The notes beneath the pieces were generated by a model, which was not told where the DNA came from, made no database searches, and saw nothing but the letters and a program-made list of their open reading frames with translations. From Parvibaculaceae bacterium Mf 1.05b.01 (GTDB taxonomy: Bacteria > Pseudomonadota > Alphaproteobacteria > Parvibaculales > Parvibaculaceae), in NCBI GenBank assembly GCA_000509225.1, contig BAOK01000001.1:186001-250000 (forward strand): a stretch of DNA of 64,000 nt, written 5' to 3'. How positions within the stretch are numbered: position 1 is the first letter of the stretch; each line of letters opens with the position of its first letter. The translations under genes and the position numbers were made by a program. Shown in pieces: positions 7,883-26,627 of this stretch.

Positions 7883-8650
7883 TCAACTAAATACGTTTAC
7901 CTGCTCCGACGGAGGGAGCATGGCATTTACAAGGGATTGGAGGTGGCGCGGATTTTCTTTGCGGCTGATCGCAGCAGCGCTCGCTGAATAAACAGCCAAG
8001 TGTACATTGCGCTCTTGGGTCAGGCGATCAAGCTTGGCGGCCAAGGGGGCAAGGATCATGTTGCCAAGAATGGCGCCATAGAATGTCGTGATAAGGGCAA
8101 CCGCCATAGCAGGCCCAATCTGAGCTGGGTCGTCCAGGACAGAGAGCATCTGAACCAGGCCGACCAACGTACCAATCAAACCCATTGCCGGTGCGATTTC
8201 TGCTGCCCGCCTAAGAACAGCGGACGATTTGATGGCACGATCCTGGGCCGCAGTTCTTTCAGTGTTCAGCAGGCGTTCAATGTCTTCTGGCGCTGCTCCG
8301 TCTACCACAAGGGAGAGGGCGCGCATTAGGAATGGATTTGAACGGAAGTCTTTCATGCGCCGTTCGAGCGTGTGCACGCCGTCTTTGCGGGAGCTTTCGG
8401 CCAGATGAATGAGCTTTTCGATGGATGCGCGGGTATTCGTCGGCGTACCTGTGAGGGTTCTTCCCGCAGCGCGTAAGGCGTCGAGCACTTCGCTGGCGCG
8501 GAAGGAGATTAGAGTGACTGCTACAGTGCCACCAAAAACAATCAGGAATGCGCGCGCATTGAGAAATGCGCTTGCGTCTCCACCCAAGGCAATGGCAAGG
8601 GCGACAAGACCTAATCCAGCAAAGAGTCCGATGAGTGTGGCGTTGTTCAT
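7883..8650 (-). CDS. MotA/PomA-like stator subunit
   Basis: A 255-residue MotA/TolQ/ExbB-family protein with four membrane segments. The stretch APAMGLIGTLVGLVQML followed by DDPAQIGPAMAVALITTFYGAILGN is typical of PomA, the A subunit of sodium-type stators, and is also common in alphaproteobacteria. It would surround a MotB/PomB partner and push on FliG. No motB-type gene is present in the window, so the partner must be elsewhere. ATG at 8650 follows GGAGT. It lies between fliN and flbD in the fliF operon. Ion specificity cannot be read here. Confidence 0.85.
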   Translation of the reverse strand: MNNATLIGLFAGLGLVALAIALGGDASAFLNARAFLIVFGGTVAVTLISFRASEVLDALRAAGRTLTGTPTNTRASIEKLIHLAESSRKDGVHTLERRMKDFRSNPFLMRALSLVVDGAAPEDIERLLNTERTAAQDRAIKSSAVLRRAAEIAPAMGLIGTLVGLVQMLSVLDDPAQIGPAMAVALITTFYGAILGNMILAPLAAKLDRLTQERNVHLAVYSASAAAISRKENPRHLQSLVNAMLPPSEQVNVFS

Positions 8651-18279: not shown

Positions 18280-20460
18280 GTGATGAACAAGGTTTTTGAG
18301 AGCACCGGACGTGCACAGCGTGCCCTGGCAGGCAGAACGAACCGGACGGCTCTTCTGGGTGGTGTCTCCGCGATCGCTATCAGTAGTGCCGCGGTATTGG
18401 TCTCAACCGGTGCGATGGCGGACGATGCGGGCGACAGAGTGGCGCCCATCAGTGTGACGGCGACACGGACACCCATGGAGGCATTTGCTGTTCCTGGAAT
18501 GGTGACTGTTAAAGGCGCTGACGAAATAGCCGAAGAAATTCCGTCTAACCTTGGCGATCTGTTCGACGATATTCCGGGTGTTACCGCTGTTGGTGGTCCC
18601 CGACGCACCGGTGAAGTGCCAACTATCCGAGGCTTCTCGGGCGCCGACATTATTGTGACGCTAGATGGTGCGCGTCAGAATTTTGTGTCAGGTCATGACG
18701 GGCGTGCCTTTATTGATCCGTCCTTCCTAAGCGAGCTTGAGGTCGTTCGAGGGTCAAGTTCAGCGCTTTATGGCTCGGGCGGAACGGGCGGTGTGATTGC
18801 GTTGCGGACGCTCACTGCGGATGACCTTCTGGGTGAAGGGGAGACGCATGGCACACGCTTTGGCCTGAGTTACCGCAGTGGCAATGACGAGTTTGCACAG
18901 CGATTGCAGGCCTATTCGAAGCCCATGGAAGGCGCGGACATTTTTGCCGGAATTGTCGCGCGTCAGTCTGACGATGTGCGTCTTGGCAACGGGACAGAGC
19001 TCGCCTCCGAAGACGACATTATTTCCGGTCTGGTGAAGGGAACATTCGACCTTGGCGACAACACGGCGCTTCGGCTGTCCTGGCAGCGGTTCTCAAATGA
19101 CGCCGTCGAACCGGGCAACGGGCAGGTGGCGACTGGCACACTCAACGATAAGGATATTGACAGCGAGACTTTTACGCTCGGCTTTACCTCCAAGCCAGTC
19201 GGTCAGGATCTCGTCGACTTCTCTGCTGTCATCTACAGCAATACCAACACTGTTGATGAAACACCTTTGACTGGGACGAGCGCTGGTGTTTTGAGTAAGC
19301 GCGAACTTGATACGGTTGGGTTGGAAATGTCTAACACCAGTCGGTTCATGTTCTCAGAGAATATTGGGCTTGCCGTTACCGCTGGTTTCGAGGTTGCCAA
19401 GGACAGTGCGGTTGGTGCGACGGGCGGCGGTGTTCGTGGTGGTGTCGTCACCGGGGATCAAGACCTCTTTGGTGCCTTTGTCCAGACCTCCTTCACCTGG
19501 TTTGCACCTTTTGGCTTAGCCGATGGTGAGTTCTCTTTGACCCCAGGCGTGCGCTTCGACACATATGACAGTCAGGATACGACCGGCGCGCAAACCAGTG
19601 ACAGTCAGGTATCGCCGAAAGTAACCGCACGGTTTGCGCCGACACCGTGGGCCTTTGCCTACGGGTCTTATGGCGATGCGTTCCGTGCGCCGCGTCTGGA
19701 CGAGATGTTTGCGATTGGCACGCACTTCCCCGTTTTTTCTCCAACATTTGCTCTGGTTGGTTTTAACACGTTCCTTCCCAACACTGCGTTGGAGGCGCAA
19801 AGCACCACCACATGGGAAGCAGGCCTCGGGTTCGAGTTTGAGGACCTGCTAAGCGATGGAGACATCTTCCAGGCCAAAGGCGGCTACTATTCAACAGATG
19901 GCGAGAATTTCATTTCGCTGGAAGTTATTCAAACTGCCGACACATCTATTCCAGGTGTGACCTGTATTCCGTTTGTTTCTATTGCGGCAAACCCGCTCGG
20001 GTGTGCGGGCACGACACAGTCTGTGAACATTGCCGATGCTGAACTGTCGGGCTTCGAGTTGGAAACCAGCTATGACTCAGATCGGTTTCGGTTCTCTCTT
20101 TCAGGCCAGACAATGGAAACGGAGAATACGGCGACCGGTCAGCCCGTCGGAGTAGAGCAGGCTGATCAAGTCACTGCGGACCTTCGTGTGAAACTGCCCG
20201 AATTCGCGTCCTATGTCGGCTGGCAGTCCACCTTTGCGGATGACTTTAGCGAGGGAACAGATACCAGCGAACATCGCGACAGTTACCAAATTCACGAAGT
20301 CTATGCCCGTTGGCGTCCGGTATCAGGTCCTTTGGACGGCTTTAGTTTTGGCGTGACGGCGGAAAATTTGTTCGACGCAGAATATCAGCGGGTGTCGTCT
20401 GACACGTTTGAAGAAGGCCGCTCTGTTCTTGTCGATGTTACCTACACACTCAACTGGTGA
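18280..20460 (+). CDS. hmuR: TonB-dependent heme/hemoglobin receptor
   Basis: An outer-membrane receptor of 726 residues. After a long basic N-region comes a signal peptide (hydrophobic core about 28-45, cleavage near GAMA-DDA), then a TonB-box-like PISVTATRTP, a plug domain (LGDLFDDIPGVTAVGG ... TIRGFSGADIIVTLDGARQN) and a 22-strand barrel ending in aromatic YTLNW. The FRAPRLDEMF motif and the NTALEAQSTTTWEAG segment match the FRAP/NPNL region of HmuR/ShuA-type heme receptors. It is the first gene of the heme operon; the ligand is inferred from that context. Confidence 0.92.
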   Translation: MMNKVFESTGRAQRALAGRTNRTALLGGVSAIAISSAAVLVSTGAMADDAGDRVAPISVTATRTPMEAFAVPGMVTVKGADEIAEEIPSNLGDLFDDIPGVTAVGGPRRTGEVPTIRGFSGADIIVTLDGARQNFVSGHDGRAFIDPSFLSELEVVRGSSSALYGSGGTGGVIALRTLTADDLLGEGETHGTRFGLSYRSGNDEFAQRLQAYSKPMEGADIFAGIVARQSDDVRLGNGTELASEDDIISGLVKGTFDLGDNTALRLSWQRFSNDAVEPGNGQVATGTLNDKDIDSETFTLGFTSKPVGQDLVDFSAVIYSNTNTVDETPLTGTSAGVLSKRELDTVGLEMSNTSRFMFSENIGLAVTAGFEVAKDSAVGATGGGVRGGVVTGDQDLFGAFVQTSFTWFAPFGLADGEFSLTPGVRFDTYDSQDTTGAQTSDSQVSPKVTARFAPTPWAFAYGSYGDAFRAPRLDEMFAIGTHFPVFSPTFALVGFNTFLPNTALEAQSTTTWEAGLGFEFEDLLSDGDIFQAKGGYYSTDGENFISLEVIQTADTSIPGVTCIPFVSIAANPLGCAGTTQSVNIADAELSGFELETSYDSDRFRFSLSGQTMETENTATGQPVGVEQADQVTADLRVKLPEFASYVGWQSTFADDFSEGTDTSEHRDSYQIHEVYARWRPVSGPLDGFSFGVTAENLFDAEYQRVSSDTFEEGRSVLVDVTYTLNW

Positions 20461-20476: not shown

Positions 20477-21535
20477 ATGATCACGACATCCGTTGAAGAA
20501 CTGCACGCGAAGATCAGACAAGAACGGGAGGCCACGCCTAATGTGCGCGCCCGCGATCTGGCGGACCGCTTGGGTATTAGTGAAGGCGAGTTGGTTTGTG
20601 CTGGTCTCGGTCAGACTGCCACCCGTCTCACTGGACCCTGGTCTGAGGTGATTACGGCCTTTGGTGATCTGGGTGAAGTGATGGCCCTGACACGCAATCA
20701 CGGCGTCGTTCATGAGAAAGTCGGTGAGTACGCCAATATGTCTTTTGGCGCGCATGGCGGCATTGTGCTCAATCATGATATTGATCTTCGCTTGTTTTTG
20801 AAGAACTGGGCGTTTGGGTTTGCTGTTAGTGAAGACACGCGATCTGGACCCCGTCGCAGTCTGCAGTTCTTCGGGCCGGACGGCACTGCGGTTCACAAAG
20901 TCTATCTGCGGGCAGAAAGCCATGAAGCTGCCTACGAGGCACTCATTGCCCAGTTTGTTCATGAAAACCAGCAGTCGCTTATTGAGGTGGCTGCTCTGCC
21001 CGCTGATACGCCAGATCGTGCTGATGGCGAGATTGATGCAGAGGGGCTGCTTTCGCATTGGAGCGGATTGAAGGACACACACGATTTTTTCCCGCTGCTT
21101 CGGAAGTACAAAGTGGGCCGTCAGCAGGCGCTTCGCCTTGCGGAAGGGCGATTTGCAGAGCGCGCTCCGGTCGATGCTGCCGAGCGGGTGCTTCATGCGG
21201 CGTCAGCTAGCGGCGCACCCATCATGGCTTTTGTGGGCAACAAGGGCATCATCCAGATCCATACTGGGCCGGTTACCCGAATTGAACCAAAGGGTCCATG
21301 GATCAACGTGCTTGATGATGGCTTCAATCTTCATTTGCGGTCTGACCTCGTCACTGACGCCTGGGTTGTGCGCAAGCCGACTGACGACGGAGATGTGACC
21401 TCGGTTGAACTCTATGACAACGATGGCGCAATGCTCATTCAGTTTTTCGGCGAGCGGAAGCCCGGCCAGGTTGAACGCGATGACTGGCGGACCATTGTCT
21501 CAGAGAATGTCCTGGGCAAAGGAGTGGCCGCATGA
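20477..21535 (+). CDS. hmuS: Cytoplasmic heme-handling protein HmuS/HemS
   Basis: The 352-residue protein belongs to the HemS/HmuS/ShuS family, which takes heme from the importer and passes it to, or acts as, a heme-degrading enzyme. It has the two repeated halves of the fold (LGEVMALTRNHGVVHEKVG in the first, GAPIMAFVGNKGIIQIHTG in the second). ATG 20477 is set by AAAGGA a few bases before; the open frame extends upstream into hmuR but is not needed. Its stop overlaps the hmuT start in ATGA. Confidence 0.94.
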   Translation: MITTSVEELHAKIRQEREATPNVRARDLADRLGISEGELVCAGLGQTATRLTGPWSEVITAFGDLGEVMALTRNHGVVHEKVGEYANMSFGAHGGIVLNHDIDLRLFLKNWAFGFAVSEDTRSGPRRSLQFFGPDGTAVHKVYLRAESHEAAYEALIAQFVHENQQSLIEVAALPADTPDRADGEIDAEGLLSHWSGLKDTHDFFPLLRKYKVGRQQALRLAEGRFAERAPVDAAERVLHAASASGAPIMAFVGNKGIIQIHTGPVTRIEPKGPWINVLDDGFNLHLRSDLVTDAWVVRKPTDDGDVTSVELYDNDGAMLIQFFGERKPGQVERDDWRTIVSENVLGKGVAA

Positions 21536-22458
21536 CCTCCCGCCGGGCGGTGCTTGCTGGTCTTGGCGCGGGAACGGTGCTCTCAGCATCTCAACTGCGT
21601 TCGTTTGCACAAGCGGCCTCTTCTTCGGCGCAGATCGTGTCGGTAGGGGGCGCCATTACCGAGACACTCTTCGCGTTGGGGCTCGGCGCGCAATTGCGGG
21701 CCGCAGACACAACAAGCACGTTTCCAGCGGCTGCGAATGCGCTCCCTAAAGTTGGCTATCTCAGGCAGTTGTCAGCTGAAGGCATTCTGGCGATGAAGCC
21801 CGACCTTGTTCTTCTCTCTGGCGAAGCGGGCCCCGCAGCAGCTGTTGCGCATCTGAAAACAGCAGGCGTCGCGCTGGAGCAAATCGATATTGGACGGTCG
21901 CCAGCTGCGGTCACAAATATGGTTGAGGCTATCGGCGCTGCAACAGGTAAAGTAGAGGTCGCCAACACCCTTGCTGCCACAGTCACAGATCAGTTCAAAA
22001 GGTTGGATGCGGAGCTTCCGGATGGAGACCGAAAGAGTGTGCTCCTGCTCCTGGCTGCGGGAAATGGCCCTTTGCTGGGCGCAGGTGCGAACACGGCGGC
22101 ATCGGCAGCAATCAATCTTGCGGGCGGTGCGTTGGCCTTTCCTGATATGCAGGGATACAAGGCCGTCTCGCTGGAGCCGGTACTTGCTGCAGACCCTGAT
22201 TGGATCATATTGCCCAGCCATGTAGCTATGGCACTGGGAGGTCCAGAAGGGATTTCTGCACTCGACGTTGTCGCGCGTACGCGGGCCGGGCCCGAAGGGC
22301 GAGTGGCCATTATCGATAGCCATTATCTACTCGGCTTTGGCCCGCGCGCGCCTCAAGCCGCCGCAGACCTCGCCACGCTCCTCTATCCGGATGCCGATAT
22401 TCCGCTGTTGAACCGGGATGCGGCGCCATCCTCACTAGTATCGCTCGTGGCTGTGTGA
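21532..22458 (+). CDS. hmuT: Periplasmic heme-binding protein HmuT
   Basis: The substrate-binding protein of the heme ABC importer, 308 residues. It starts with SRRAVLAGLGAGTVL, a twin-arginine-like signal with cleavage near SFAQA. The mature part has the class III binding-protein fold of the TroA/BtuF group (IVSVGGAITETLFALGLG). The Tyr in KVGYLRQLSAEGI matches the heme-ligating Tyr of ShuT and PhuT. It is coupled by overlap to both hmuS and hmuU. Confidence 0.93.
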   Translation: MTSRRAVLAGLGAGTVLSASQLRSFAQAASSSAQIVSVGGAITETLFALGLGAQLRAADTTSTFPAAANALPKVGYLRQLSAEGILAMKPDLVLLSGEAGPAAAVAHLKTAGVALEQIDIGRSPAAVTNMVEAIGAATGKVEVANTLAATVTDQFKRLDAELPDGDRKSVLLLLAAGNGPLLGAGANTAASAAINLAGGALAFPDMQGYKAVSLEPVLAADPDWIILPSHVAMALGGPEGISALDVVARTRAGPEGRVAIIDSHYLLGFGPRAPQAAADLATLLYPDADIPLLNRDAAPSSLVSLVAV

Positions 22459-23537
22459 TGAGCATCCTCACGCTTCGTGCCCGCCAATACGTCGACCTTT
22501 CAGAGGTTGTTCGCGCGTTGGCGTTGCCGGGGCTTGGGCTGCTGCTTGTCGCGGCAATATTAACTGGCCTAATAAGCGGCGCTGCTGATATGGCCACTTG
22601 GGATGTCGTCTCGGTGCTTTGGGACGTTGTGTCCGGGCGTGGCGATGTAGACGCGATTTCGCGTGCCATCATCATGGAAATAAGAATGCCGCGGGTTCTC
22701 CTCGGCGGCATGGTCGGGGCCACGTTGGCGGTATCAGGTGCGGTCCTACAAGCGTTGTTCCGCAATCCTCTCGCAGAGCCGAGCATTATCGGTGTGTCCG
22801 CAGGCGCCGGGGCAGCGGCGGTCACGACGATTGTGCTCGGCACGGCATTTGGTGCCATGGGAGCCATCATTCTCTATGCGCTTCCCGTCGCGGCCTTCGC
22901 TGGAGGGTTTGTTGCGACCCTAATCGTCGTGGCGATTGCCCGTGTGAATGGCCAAACGCCGATGACCACCATTCTTTTGAGCGGTATCGCTGTGGCTGCG
23001 CTTGGTGGCGCCATTATGGGGCTCATGATGTTTATCAGCAATGACGAGCAGCTGAGGTCGATCACATTCTGGATGCTTGGAAGTCTAGGCGGTGCGACGT
23101 GGACCACGATACTCCCGGCAATCACGATCATGAGTGTCATTCTGTTCGCGATGCCGATGCTGATGCACAAGCTCAACCTGATGTTGCTGGGAGAGCGTGA
23201 AGCGGCCTCTCTCGGACTGAATGTTGACCGGTTCAAATACCTCTGCGTGGCTCTGGTCGCTGCCGGTGTTGGCGCTGCGGTTGCGGTGTCCGGCACGATT
23301 GGATTCGTCGGAATTGTGGTTCCGCATCTGCTGCGCATGGTGGTTGGTCCCGACCATCGTATCCTCCTGCCCGCTTCCGCACTTGGTGGCGCCGCGTTAC
23401 TGCTATGGGCCGATGTGGTGGCCAGAACACTTGCGCCGCCTGCGGAGCTCCCGATTGGTGTTTTGACAGCACTGCTAGGTGCGCCCTTTTTCCTATGGCT
23501 GTTGCGCAGGGCGTCGCGGGAGGGAACGTCATGGTGA
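22458..23537 (+). CDS. hmuU: Heme ABC transporter permease HmuU
   Basis: A 359-residue FecCD-family inner-membrane permease with about ten membrane segments, the signature MPRVLLGGMVGATLAVSGA, the helical coupling region around GEREAASLG and the conserved GFVGIVVPHLLRMVVGPDHR. ATG 22458 overlaps the hmuT stop (TGATG). It would form a dimer served by HmuV and receive heme from HmuT. Confidence 0.94.
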   Translation: MSILTLRARQYVDLSEVVRALALPGLGLLLVAAILTGLISGAADMATWDVVSVLWDVVSGRGDVDAISRAIIMEIRMPRVLLGGMVGATLAVSGAVLQALFRNPLAEPSIIGVSAGAGAAAVTTIVLGTAFGAMGAIILYALPVAAFAGGFVATLIVVAIARVNGQTPMTTILLSGIAVAALGGAIMGLMMFISNDEQLRSITFWMLGSLGGATWTTILPAITIMSVILFAMPMLMHKLNLMLLGEREAASLGLNVDRFKYLCVALVAAGVGAAVAVSGTIGFVGIVVPHLLRMVVGPDHRILLPASALGGAALLLWADVVARTLAPPAELPIGVLTALLGAPFFLWLLRRASREGTSW

Positions 23538-24364
23538 GCCTTGCGGTGCGCGGTGTGGATGTAGTCCTGGGTTCGCGTCAGGTGCTCACGGGTGCGTCCA
23601 TGGAGGTGTCCCCAGGCGAGCTTGTCGCGGTGTTGGGGCCAAACGGGGCGGGCAAATCAACCTTACTTAATGTCTTGAGCGGCGAACAGAAGGTGCTAAC
23701 CGGCGATGTGCGGATCGGTGATGAAAAGCTTCACCATCTATCGTCGGCGTCTCTTGCCTGCAAACGGGCATTGATGCCGCAGAAAGCATCGCTGAGTTTT
23801 CCCTTCAAAGTGAAGGACGTGGTGGCGATGGGGCGTGACCCGTTTCGCGCATCTGTTGAGGTGTCGTCGAACAGGCTTGCTGTCGACTGGGCACTGCAAG
23901 AAACCGACATAGGCCATCTTGCTCGGCGGGTTTACACCCAGCTATCCGGTGGGGAGCAGCAGCGTGTTCAGCTCGCGCGAGTGTTGGCACAGGTTTGGCG
24001 AGAGGCCGATGAGGACGCCCGCTTCCTCCTGCTTGATGAGCCAACCTCTAGCCTGGACCTCGCACATCAACACTCTGTTTTGCATTTGGCCAGCAGGCTT
24101 GCAGAGAGAGGCGTTGGCGTGGTCGCAGTTGTTCATGATCTTAATCTTGCGGCGCTTTATGCGACGCAGGTTGTCGTTCTTTCTAAAGGCAATGTGGTGG
24201 CAACTGGAGCGCCTGAGGCGGTATTGCAGCCCTCGTTGATTGCTGATGTGTTTGACCTTTCTGTCCACCGGGTCGAGGACCCTGACAGTGGTCGGAAACT
24301 GATTGTGCCAACAGGCAATCATCGGCGGAGCGCCTCAGTGATTGATATTCGGCGTGCCCTATGA
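23531..24364 (+). CDS. hmuV: Heme ABC transporter ATPase HmuV
   Basis: A 277-residue ABC ATPase: Walker A GPNGAGKST (about residue 36-44), Q-loop at MPQKASLSFPF, signature LSGGEQQRVQLARVL, Walker B FLLLDEPTSSLDL and H-loop VVHDLNL. The ATG at 23531 overlaps the last codons of hmuU, as usual in this operon type; the open frame extends upstream inside hmuU. The protein drives heme import through HmuU. Confidence 0.94.
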   Translation: MVSLAVRGVDVVLGSRQVLTGASMEVSPGELVAVLGPNGAGKSTLLNVLSGEQKVLTGDVRIGDEKLHHLSSASLACKRALMPQKASLSFPFKVKDVVAMGRDPFRASVEVSSNRLAVDWALQETDIGHLARRVYTQLSGGEQQRVQLARVLAQVWREADEDARFLLLDEPTSSLDLAHQHSVLHLASRLAERGVGVVAVVHDLNLAALYATQVVVLSKGNVVATGAPEAVLQPSLIADVFDLSVHRVEDPDSGRKLIVPTGNHRRSASVIDIRRAL

Positions 24365-24380
24365 GCATGGAGATTTGACA

Positions 24381-25028
24381 ATGGAAGAAACTGTTCTGAG
24401 CTCTGAGCGGCCTGAAACATCAATCGTTGATCCAGAAACAATCGACCTTTTGTCGACGGCTCTCAACTTTGTTGATGCTGGAGGGCCCGTTCTCTACCTG
24501 CTCGCAGCGCTATCGTTTCTTACCCTCGTGCTCATCGTGGCCAAAGCGATGCAGTTCTCTTCTGCACGTCTGGGCGAACGGGCGCAGAAGGGGGCTTTGG
24601 CGCGGGTCCGCAAGGCAACGCAGGATGCTGTCGATGTGCTCAAGGAAGAGGCACAAATCGAGAAGGCTGGGCTTCGTGCCGCTCGCCGTGAGCTGAGACC
24701 TTTGGAGGGCGGCCTTGGCATGCTGGGGCTGATCGCCATGTTGAGCCCCCTCATAGGCCTTTTGGGTACCGTGGTTGGCATGATCGACGCTTTCCGTGCG
24801 TTGTCTGAGGCCGGCGGGGCAGTTGATCCAAGTCTTTTGTCGGCTGGTATCTGGGTGGCTCTTCTGACGACAGCGGCTGGGCTCATCGTGGCTATACCGG
24901 CAGCCCTAGCGCATGGCTGGTTCGAAGGCCGTCTGGCGCTGTTTGCTGATTTGGCGGAACAGACGATCGGAGAAGTGGCAGATGTTCGCAGAGACCATCC
25001 GCACCATTTTGGTGTGGCTGCAGACTAG
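24381..25028 (+). CDS. exbB: ExbB-type proton channel subunit
   Basis: A 215-residue MotA/TolQ/ExbB-family inner-membrane protein with three membrane segments (about 35-52, 112-135 and 155-178), including LSPLIGLLGTVVGMIDAF. With ExbD and TonB it uses the proton gradient to power outer-membrane transport. ATG 24381 follows GGAG at eight bases; it begins 16 bases after hmuV ends. Its place in the operon suggests it serves HmuR. Confidence 0.9.
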   Translation: MEETVLSSERPETSIVDPETIDLLSTALNFVDAGGPVLYLLAALSFLTLVLIVAKAMQFSSARLGERAQKGALARVRKATQDAVDVLKEEAQIEKAGLRAARRELRPLEGGLGMLGLIAMLSPLIGLLGTVVGMIDAFRALSEAGGAVDPSLLSAGIWVALLTTAAGLIVAIPAALAHGWFEGRLALFADLAEQTIGEVADVRRDHPHHFGVAAD

Positions 25029-25039
25029 GGAGCGATATT

Positions 25040-25441
25040 GTGGTTTTGCGGCAACCTAGACCAAAACTGGTATTGAGCCTCACACCTCTTATTGATGTCG
25101 TTTTCATTCTGCTTATCTTTTTCATGCTGGCGTCTCAGTTTGTAGATTGGCGGCAGATTGAGCTGATGCCTCAGGCACAGGTCTCCGGGGACGTGGTTGA
25201 TGATCAAACCTCGTCGTTACAACTGCGCAACGATGGATCGTTTCTGGTAAATGGCCAAACTGTTGATGAGCTGGGCATGGCCGTCGGTCGGCTCAAGTCC
25301 ACAGGCAGTGATAGAGCTGTGTTTCTATCGCCAGAAGATACCGTCCAAATTCAATACGTAGTGGATGTGGTCGAGGCATTAAACGAAGCCGGCCTTACCA
25401 AGGTACAGCTCTCGTTAGTAGAGGCAGGTGGCCAGCCATGA
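25040..25441 (+). CDS. exbD: ExbD-type subunit (catalytic Asp present)
   Basis: A 133-residue ExbD/TolR-family protein: short cytoplasmic start, one membrane helix (residues 13-35) and a periplasmic domain. The helix has the family motif LTPLIDVVFILLIFF with Asp19, the residue that carries protons through the ExbB pore. It starts at GTG 25040 behind GGGAG and overlaps the next exbD by four bases (ATGA). Confidence 0.92.
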   Translation: MVLRQPRPKLVLSLTPLIDVVFILLIFFMLASQFVDWRQIELMPQAQVSGDVVDDQTSSLQLRNDGSFLVNGQTVDELGMAVGRLKSTGSDRAVFLSPEDTVQIQYVVDVVEALNEAGLTKVQLSLVEAGGQP

Positions 25442-25842
25442 ATACTCTGCAAATAAGAAAAACTGGCTACAAACCGGATGGCACCTTGCCGTTGATCAAC
25501 ATCGTCCTGTTGCTGGTGCTAGCTTTCATGATGGCGGGGACGTTTACGGAACCATTGCCGCCTGATTTTGACCCCCTCCGATCAGAAGCCGCCGTCCCCA
25601 ACGAAGAAGCAAAGCAGTCCATTGTTCTGACGATGGACACAGAAGGCGTTTTGTCGCTTGAGGGCCGTGGTCTGGCCGCCGGAAAACTGGAACCTCTGTT
25701 GAATAGTCTTGGTCAGAGTGAGCATGCCCTGGAAGTGAGAACCGATGCACGCACCCCGGCTGTGCTGGTTATTGCGCTTCTGCAATCGGCGGAAGGCTTG
25801 GGCATTGAGAATGTGCAGATCGTAACGCTGGGGCGGACGTGA
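25438..25842 (+). CDS. exbD: Second ExbD-like subunit, Asp replaced by Asn
   Basis: A 134-residue ExbD/TolR-like protein with one membrane helix (about 17-37) and a periplasmic domain (LSLEGRGLAAGKLEPLLNSL...). At the place of the conserved proton-carrying Asp, the sequence is LPLINIVLLLVL, giving Asn21 (codon AAC). All else is intact and the reading frame overlaps both neighbours, so it is not a decayed gene. ExbD acts as a pair inside an ExbB pentamer, so a mixed pair with the preceding ExbD is plausible; this is inference. Confidence 0.85.
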   Translation: MNTLQIRKTGYKPDGTLPLINIVLLLVLAFMMAGTFTEPLPPDFDPLRSEAAVPNEEAKQSIVLTMDTEGVLSLEGRGLAAGKLEPLLNSLGQSEHALEVRTDARTPAVLVIALLQSAEGLGIENVQIVTLGRT

Positions 25843-26627
25843 CTTTGGTCTCTGGTAAGGCGGCACCGTCACTCGGACGGTTCGTTCCACGTGCGATACT
25901 GGTCGCCATAGTGATGCACTTGGTGGCTTTTACATACATTCTTTTTTCATCGCCATCAGATGGCGGCGGAGGCGGAAAGGTGGTGGGCCAGTTGAGCGTT
26001 CATCTGGGAGGTTCGGGCGCAGCCGGTCCTTCTGAAGTTCTGCTGACTGAAACTGTTGTCGAGCCGACGGTTCAGCCACCGGCACCTCGTGTTGAAGAGC
26101 AACAAGCTCCCGAGGTAGAGGCAGTTGCGCCAAAGCAACGGGTGGTTCAGGCCAAGCCTGTCCTTCGACGGCCTGCCGAGATTCTGCGGGTCAGTGAGCT
26201 CACAGAGCCAGCAGCGCCGGTTCGGCAGGAGGTTGGGGAGCGCGGTGATGGCAACCCGGTTGGGTCTGCGAGCGCTGGGGCGCCAAGCCTTGGAGAGGGC
26301 GCAGCGTCGCAGACTGCGGGTATTGGGTCATCCGAAGCAAGTGCCGGGGACCAACGGGATGCCTACCTTGCCTTGATCCGCGCGCGTATTGAAAAGAACC
26401 GAACGTATCCGTCGGCGGCGCGTCGCAAACGTGAAGAAGGCATGGCGACGATCACAATCACGATTGATGCACGGGGGGATTTGACCCAGGTGCAGCTCGT
26501 AGCCGGATCAGGCTCGTTTCATCTGGACCGTGCGGCAAAACGGATGGCTGAAAAGTCAGCGCCTTTTCCCCCACCGCCTGTCACGCCTTTTTCAACACAA
26601 ATCCCCATCGTTTTTACCCTGAGATGA
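25839..26627 (+). CDS. tonB: TonB protein of the heme operon
   Basis: TonB spans the periplasm and transmits energy to outer-membrane receptors. The 262-residue protein has an N-terminal membrane anchor (about 18-35), a Pro/Glu/Val-rich linker (PTVQPPAPRVEEQQAPEVEA), a Gly/Ser-rich section and the C-terminal TonB domain (YPSAARRKREEGMATITITI ... SFHLDRAAKRM). The GTG at 25839 overlaps the exbD stop. It ends the operon; the 287 bases after it (26628-26914) hold no supported gene and no clear terminator. Confidence 0.92.
   Translation: MTLVSGKAAPSLGRFVPRAILVAIVMHLVAFTYILFSSPSDGGGGGKVVGQLSVHLGGSGAAGPSEVLLTETVVEPTVQPPAPRVEEQQAPEVEAVAPKQRVVQAKPVLRRPAEILRVSELTEPAAPVRQEVGERGDGNPVGSASAGAPSLGEGAASQTAGIGSSEASAGDQRDAYLALIRARIEKNRTYPSAARRKREEGMATITITIDARGDLTQVQLVAGSGSFHLDRAAKRMAEKSAPFPPPPVTPFSTQIPIVFTLR

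Follow-up and report, generated by a model that had tools for sequence, protein, structure and literature searches.

Two exbD genes lie in tandem in a heme-uptake operon of Parvibaculaceae bacterium Mf 1.05b.01, and only the first encodes the membrane aspartate that carries protons in Ton motors. Is the second gene, with asparagine at that place, an error, a drifting copy, or a working part of the motor? The locus was analyzed within a 64,000-nucleotide stretch of DNA, called here the window. Pfam and NCBIfam models identified a single operon-like run, hmuR-hmuS-hmuT-hmuU-hmuV-exbB-exbD1-exbD2-tonB (Table 1), which bears out the sequence-only reading of this DNA, in which hmuRSTUV, exbB and tonB had been placed in one operon with the exbD pair. 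All members of a Ton system, exbB, exbD, tonB and a TonB-dependent receptor, were found. Both exbD genes had also been said to overlap their neighbors. This holds for exbD1 with exbD2 (4 nt, 25438-25441, the exbD2 start lying on the exbD1 stop as ATGA) and for exbD2 with tonB (4 nt, 25839-25842), but not for exbB, which ends at 25028, 11 nt upstream of exbD1.

Table 1. Genes and key codons of the heme and Ton operon in the window
Feature	Positions	Strand	Basis
hmuR, TonB-dependent heme receptor	18280..20460	+	Pfam Plug and TonB_dep_Rec; NCBIfam TIGR01785, 385.5 bits (cut-off 316.85)
hmuS, HemS/ChuX-type heme protein	20477..21535	+	PF05171, PF06228
hmuT, periplasmic binding protein	21532..22458	+	PF01497
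hmuU, FecCD permease	22455..23537	+	PF01032
hmuV, heme ABC ATPase	23528..24364	+	NF010068, 314.7 bits (cut-off 261)
exbB, GIW type, TT motif present, Val at the Glu176-like place	24381..25028	+	PF01618; motif AGIWVALLTTAAGL
exbD1, proton-carrying form, Asp19 and Thr15	25040..25441	+	PF02472, 80.3 bits; sequence
exbD1 Asp19 codon, GAT	25094..25096	+	sequence
exbD2, Asn form, Asn21 and Leu17	25438..25842	+	PF02472, 45.3 bits; alignment to E. coli Asp25; ExbD-like model
exbD2 Asn21 codon, AAC, at the place of the proton-carrying Asp	25498..25500	+	sequence
tonB, 4-nt overlap with exbD2	25839..26627	+	PF03544

The product of exbD1 (GTG start, 133 aa) reads SLTPLID19VVF, and that of exbD2 (ATG start, 134 aa) reads TLPLIN21IVL. 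Both matched the ExbD/TolR family PF02472 above its cut-off of 25.4 bits, and a profile alignment set Asn21 of exbD2 against Asp25 of the solved E. coli ExbD (6tyi). The membrane aspartate of a proton carrier, Asp25 in E. coli, is present in exbD1, and exbD2 has Asn21 at this place. The initial observation of Asp in the first copy and Asn in the second was correct, being confirmed by the sequence itself, by Pfam and by the alignment to 6tyi. The pair is Asp/Asn and not of the Sphingobium type, in which both copies have Asp.

The same genome (two contigs, 100% complete) was searched for PF02472, Plug, TonB_C and MotA/ExbB. The five PF02472 matches were TolR (PLVD), the window pair, and a second tandem exbD pair, which lies behind another ExbB and also reads PLID then PLIN. 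There were five Plug-domain matches for TonB-dependent receptors, two TonB_C matches, and six MotA/ExbB matches, including TolQ, two ExbB and a weak sixth. MotA-like genes occurred in the window (7883-8650) and near the second pair, the latter with a MotB-like neighbor. TolR aside, no Asp-bearing ExbD was detected with PF02472 in this genome outside the two pairs, so TonB-dependent uptake must draw on the products of the Asp/Asn pairs unless TolQR helps; TolQR could energize some receptors by cross-talk. A plasmid search with ExbD2 gave no match.

The second Asp/Asn system (L301:8484-11024, G000:C2) is followed by a protein of 303 aa whose N-terminal helix (SVGLH) resembles that of TonB and which also has a proline-rich stretch. 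It had no TonB_C match, and it carries C-terminal Cys-containing motifs that are also found in L055. Judged by these features, it may be an undescribed force transducer.

The arrangement was followed in 255 loci, taken from profile and sequence searches of five genome sets and from 80 fetched regions. The searches covered the genome itself; 61 genomes searched with ExbD2; named genomes searched with the Asp form, from which the best 80 of at least 527 confirmed places were used; 397 Pseudomonadota genomes searched with an Asn profile (180 matched, 50 loci read at residue level); and 288 genomes of the class searched with an Asp profile (113 matched, 90 loci read at residue level). Gene starts were set by script at the first ATG, GTG or TTG after a stop, and tandem pairs that agreed in the last 90 residues of each gene were taken as one.

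These loci contained 152 distinct tandem exbD pairs: 137 Asp/Asn, 13 Asp/Asp, one Asp/Ser, and one in which the first gene was cut by a contig end and the second was Asn; the sample consists of related sequences, and the locus counts are not independent events. The order was fixed, with no reversed (Asn/Asp) and no Asn/Asn pair among the 152. A search that starts from the Asp form does not constrain the residue of the second gene, and the 105 pairs yielded by such searches were 91 Asp/Asn, 12 Asp/Asp, one Asp/Ser and one cut. By class label, 25 of the 137 Asp/Asn pairs were alphaproteobacterial and 16 gammaproteobacterial, and 96 had no label. The homologs of exbD2, which the sequence-only reading had named as the check on its observation, thus conserved Asn and did not show the Asp or random residues that it would have taken as counting against it.

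The two genes were closely spaced and their linkage was near-obligate. A 4-nt overlap of the ATGA type was found in 80 of the 137 Asp/Asn pairs, and in 51 more the two genes overlapped by at most 60 nt or were at most 30 nt apart. Only two Asn copies stood outside the tandem list. One, L242, is truly tandem, its overlap having been missed by the script through an over-extended start. In the other, L046 (5941-12280), the Asn gene lies about 5.5 kb downstream of the Asp gene with other long reading frames between, which may be a genuine separation or an artefact of the draft assembly. What looked like a fusion of an Asp and an Asn gene in L171 was set aside as a probable frameshift in a draft genome, since, in our judgement, the N-terminus of the second chain would face the wrong side of the membrane. 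A single contig carries two divergently oriented Asp/Asn exbB-exbD-exbD sets in L092:866-6819, with about 2.7 kb between the two exbB genes.

Of the 13 Asp/Asp pairs, nine come from a different lineage, which has two ExbB-like genes and reads PMLD in each copy, and the remaining four (L093, L105, L126, L174) share the ExbB type of the Asp/Asn systems; Asn is therefore not indispensable in every lineage. The PMLD/PMLD loci (L193, L194, L202, L208, L211, L212, L215, L216, L232) have ExbB-like genes upstream; in most of them there are two, of which only one has a GGIS motif that could be read. The Asp/Ser pair (L181, G680), whose second ExbD reads PLIS, would be a natural variant of the one-Asp axle; its ExbB reads GGIWEALFATQVGL, in which Ala replaces the first Thr of the usual TT motif.

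Outside the Pseudomonadota, a loose match to the Asn profile was obtained in 67 of 112 genomes from the phylum to which a 'Deltaproteobacteria' record (L103) belongs. Two of the 25 best loci that were read were Asp/Asn pairs (L268, L269), and Asn was seen in none of the other 23, of which three had unread motifs. Two further tandem pairs (L262, L263), found in the L103 genome and that of a Planctomycetaceae record, were Asp/Asp, and in the phylum of a Flexibacter record (L114) two of 99 genomes exceeded the cut-off, both with Asp.

Column conservation was calculated for 142 pairs, after removal of the nine Asp/Asp pairs with split ExbB and of the pair whose first gene is cut. Asp was present in 100% of the first copies. 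In the second copies, whose median pairwise identity was 28%, Asn reached 96.5% and its column ranked fourth among 133 in conservation. The second-copy codons at the site were AAT (70), AAC (68), GAC (9), GAT (4) and AGC (1). The near-equal use of AAT and AAC indicates that the residue is held and not the codon, synonymous change being free and amino-acid change rare. For ExbD2 in four members of the genus, dN was 0.22-0.28 and dS 1.07-2.10, a comparison that is rough because dS is high. Conservation, codons and relatives rule out sequencing error or drift as the source of the asparagine, and its presence in relatives and in the second tandem pair of the same genome shows that Asn21 is not due to chance. 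It might still be supposed that the second Asp of an ancient Asp/Asp pair was lost under relaxed selection and that Asn is tolerated without a role, which would agree with the finding of Asp in four and Ser in one of the 142 second copies. We consider this very improbable, since a single transition would restore an Asp codon and yet Asn has been kept at such low overall identity, and dN in the genus is well below dS.

A quick tree of 118 ExbD rows was inferred with the column of the site removed. The 137 Asp/Asn pairs were thinned for diversity to 103, and the first 34 of these were included, together with every Asp/Asp and Asp/Ser pair (14 in all) and with 22 singles out of a diverse set of 57. 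All 34 Asn copies fell with five other second copies in one group (SH-aLRT 93, below the 95 mark), while 33 of the 34 Asp/Asn first copies grouped with five other first copies and two singles (SH-aLRT 87), L028 being the lone Asp/Asn first copy outside. Within this first-copy cluster of 40 rows, only L087, cut by a contig end, and L046, with its 5.5 kb separation, were without a neighboring Asn form. The site needs three state changes on this tree. As 57 of its 115 inner branches were open, a single origin is favored but not proven.

A second difference accompanied the first. The residue four places before the site was equated by alignment with E. coli Thr21. Thr was found there in 124 of 137 first copies and in 73 of 79 ExbD outside pairs, while the Asn second copies had Leu, Val or Ile in 136 of 137 cases and Thr in one. 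In the second copies of the Asp/Asp pairs with the same ExbB type, it was Thr in L105 and Val or Ile in L126, L093 and L174. Neither polar residue of this stretch is thus left in the Asn subunit, which suits a chain not meant to take protons. This also bears on the idea that Asn21 is deamidated after translation, making the motor an ordinary Asp/Asp one. Such a change is chemically possible, but no support for it was found, the Thr one turn earlier is lost too, and an Asp codon is only one base away; we regard deamidation as scarcely credible.

An AlphaFold2 model of ExbD2, built from a 12-row alignment (mean pLDDT 75, pTM 0.49), has a helix at 19-35 followed by an alpha/beta domain. Its best seven PDB matches were ExbD or TolR (top E 3.3e-05), and the model thus combines the transmembrane helix and the periplasmic fold of the family. 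The Asn form is therefore seemingly a whole ExbD and not a remnant.

The ExbB proteins of the Asp/Asn systems are of a common type, reading GIW-ALLTT or nearly so. Trp beside the place of E. coli Glu176 was found in all 132 readable Asp/Asn systems, in four of 11 Asp/Asp systems, in the one Asp/Ser system, and in two of 54 ExbB from loci without a pair; the TT motif was retained in the same 132 of 132 Asp/Asn systems. The GIW type was rejected as a marker exclusive to the pair, as it also occurs with a single Asp ExbD in L106, L109, L267 and L293, and in eight of the 25 loci from the phylum of L103. A column contrast of ExbB against a set chosen by its non-Trp motifs was circular for Trp and was discarded. 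Of the 132 Asp/Asn systems, 54 have Glu at the Glu176 place, which was set through an alignment to TolQ and not on E. coli ExbB itself, and 57 have Val, Leu, Ile or Ala. Among the 54 ExbB from loci without a pair, 51 have Glu, Gln or Lys there. Loss of Glu176 is a tendency only and was rejected as a clean marker. Glu176 of E. coli ExbB has been called essential (PMC8599685), and the window ExbB has Val at the place that matches it by motif.

We propose, with a probability of about 0.7, that exbB-exbD1-exbD2 encodes an ExbB5 motor whose ExbD axle is a heterodimer with a single proton site. One helix each of ExbD(Asp) and ExbD(Asn) would stand inside a ring of five ExbB, and only the Asp subunit would take up and release protons, its Asp19 and the ExbB threonines being assumed to work as in E. 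coli. The site of the Asn subunit would be uncharged and not protonatable, so that this subunit would serve as a constant neutral partner, a fixed second half of the axle that keeps its geometry, probably with a periplasmic domain for docking to TonB or peptidoglycan. With such a half the two sides of the axle would never be equivalent. The motor would drive TonB, here for heme uptake through HmuR. The published rotary scheme has two alternating Asp and a turn of 36 degrees per proton (PMC9022066, PMC12905483), and the Asp of ExbD, TolR and MotB is described as absolutely required (PMC12905483). The 10-fold symmetry of 5:2 motors has been called almost certainly universal, and an asymmetric contact with the flagellar C-ring has been suggested as a possible source of 72-degree steps (PMC9389320). 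The gene content of the Asp/Asn systems allows one Asp per heterodimer, as against two equivalent axle subunits in the 5:2 motor. If ExbD1 and ExbD2 share one pore and one Asp is enough, we would expect one productive event per ExbB subunit, each proton then corresponding to 72 degrees and not 36.

The Asn form might instead act outside the pore, as an assembly, stability or docking factor (an adaptor to TonB or peptidoglycan) beside an ordinary ExbB5-ExbD1 homodimer motor. Its ExbD-like predicted periplasmic fold would suit such a task, and so would the distribution of the PsiXPsiXLP stretch. In its strict form this stretch occurred in four of 137 first copies, 29 of 137 second copies and 62 of 79 singles, and its near-loss in first copies and retention in some second copies hint that periplasmic duties are divided within the pair. 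The same residues have been tied to TonB activity (PMC11658791). However, the transmembrane helix (PLIN, FF) contains most of the columns that are best conserved in the Asn form, which a factor acting outside the pore would have no need of, and all but two rows of the first-copy cluster have an adjoining Asn form. We consider a role outside the pore unlikely.

A heterodimer in one pore also agrees with what is described for the mutated E. coli protein: ExbD(D25N) is called inactive (PMC11658791), and an axle of two Asn chains would lack any proton site, which counts for pairing of the two forms. The same inactivity could make the Asn form a dose-dependent brake in a mixture of Asp/Asp, Asp/Asn and Asn/Asn axles. 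But a brake would need neither close coupling in a fixed order nor the second, coordinated loss of Thr, and we hold it to be more doubtful still. The heterodimeric axle has a wider form, to which we give even odds. In this form, the Asp/Asn systems would represent a widespread natural 5:1:1 class of motor with one proton site, 5-fold and not 10-fold symmetry, and one proton per 72 degrees, in which Asn permanently mimics the protonated state and fixes the TonB side.

The sequence-only reading had suggested that an active/inactive ExbD pair could give an asymmetric motor for heme uptake. The idea of an asymmetric motor is strengthened by the conserved Asn, but the specificity for heme is not. 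Tandem pairs of 44 named loci (42 Asp/Asn and two Asp/Asp) were inspected with flanks of up to about 6 kb, and the hmuRSTUV order of the window was found in one (L036). HmuR-like genes were near the pair in four of the 44 and HmuV-like ATPases in 12, and a TonB was recognizable with that of the window in 26. From these neighborhoods, the Asp/Asn pair does not look like a heme speciality.

Several described systems resemble parts of this one. The ExbB5-ExbD2 Ton motors of E. coli, Serratia and Pseudomonas share with the window exbB, exbD and tonB, the families PF01618 and PF02472, the TT motif and the periplasmic fold. These motors are described as having two identical ExbD that alternate, each with Asp25 (PMC9022066, PMC12905483), whereas one of the two ExbD in the window is the Asn form, which also lacks the preceding Thr. 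In tonB1-exbB1-exbD1-exbD2 of Sphingobium SYK-6 a single exbB is likewise followed by two exbD genes, and there, unlike in the window, Asp-25 is stated to be conserved in both ExbD (PMC8599685), and S. maltophilia has a tandem exbD1a/exbD1b (PMC11002078). The heme cluster of Ruegeria sp. TM1040 contains hmuTUV, hmuS, hmuR, exbB, two exbD (exbD1 and its duplicate exbD1a) and tonB, and mutation confirmed that its hmuR takes part in heme uptake (PMC5225302). The comparison is by description and not by genes, and the accessible text of that paper does not mention an Asp-to-Asn change. Asp/Asn pairs were read in other Rhodobacterales loci, such as L075 (Sulfitobacter) and L104 (Falsiphaeobacter).

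Two further machines combine a pentamer-type protein with unlike partners. The AglRQS gliding motor of Myxococcus has one MotA/ExbB-like and two different MotB/ExbD-like proteins; the conserved Asp is described for both AglQ and AglS, and whether they form a heterodimer is stated to be not known (PMC9389320). For TPH-vWA pairs with TolQ-like pentamers, two different partners per pentamer have been proposed; these have a conserved Asp pair, one per monomer, and no tolR or exbD gene (PMC12204202). In the accessible part of the open-access literature, no description of a natural Asn-bearing ExbD partner or of a conserved Asp/Asn pair was found, which is weak evidence of absence. As far as could be seen, then, the family, the gene order and the tandem exbD are known, and the proposed conserved one-Asp axle is new.

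A lopsided Asp/Asn pair that is kept across many bacteria questions the view that both ExbD subunits carry protons in turn, and if the 5:1:1 class is real, the rule that both Asp must alternate would not be universal. With the natural pair one can ask directly if a single proton site suffices, through what angle the motor turns per proton, and whether asymmetry of the axle sets the TonB site. An Asp/Asn motor would also offer laboratories an axle of two distinguishable chains.
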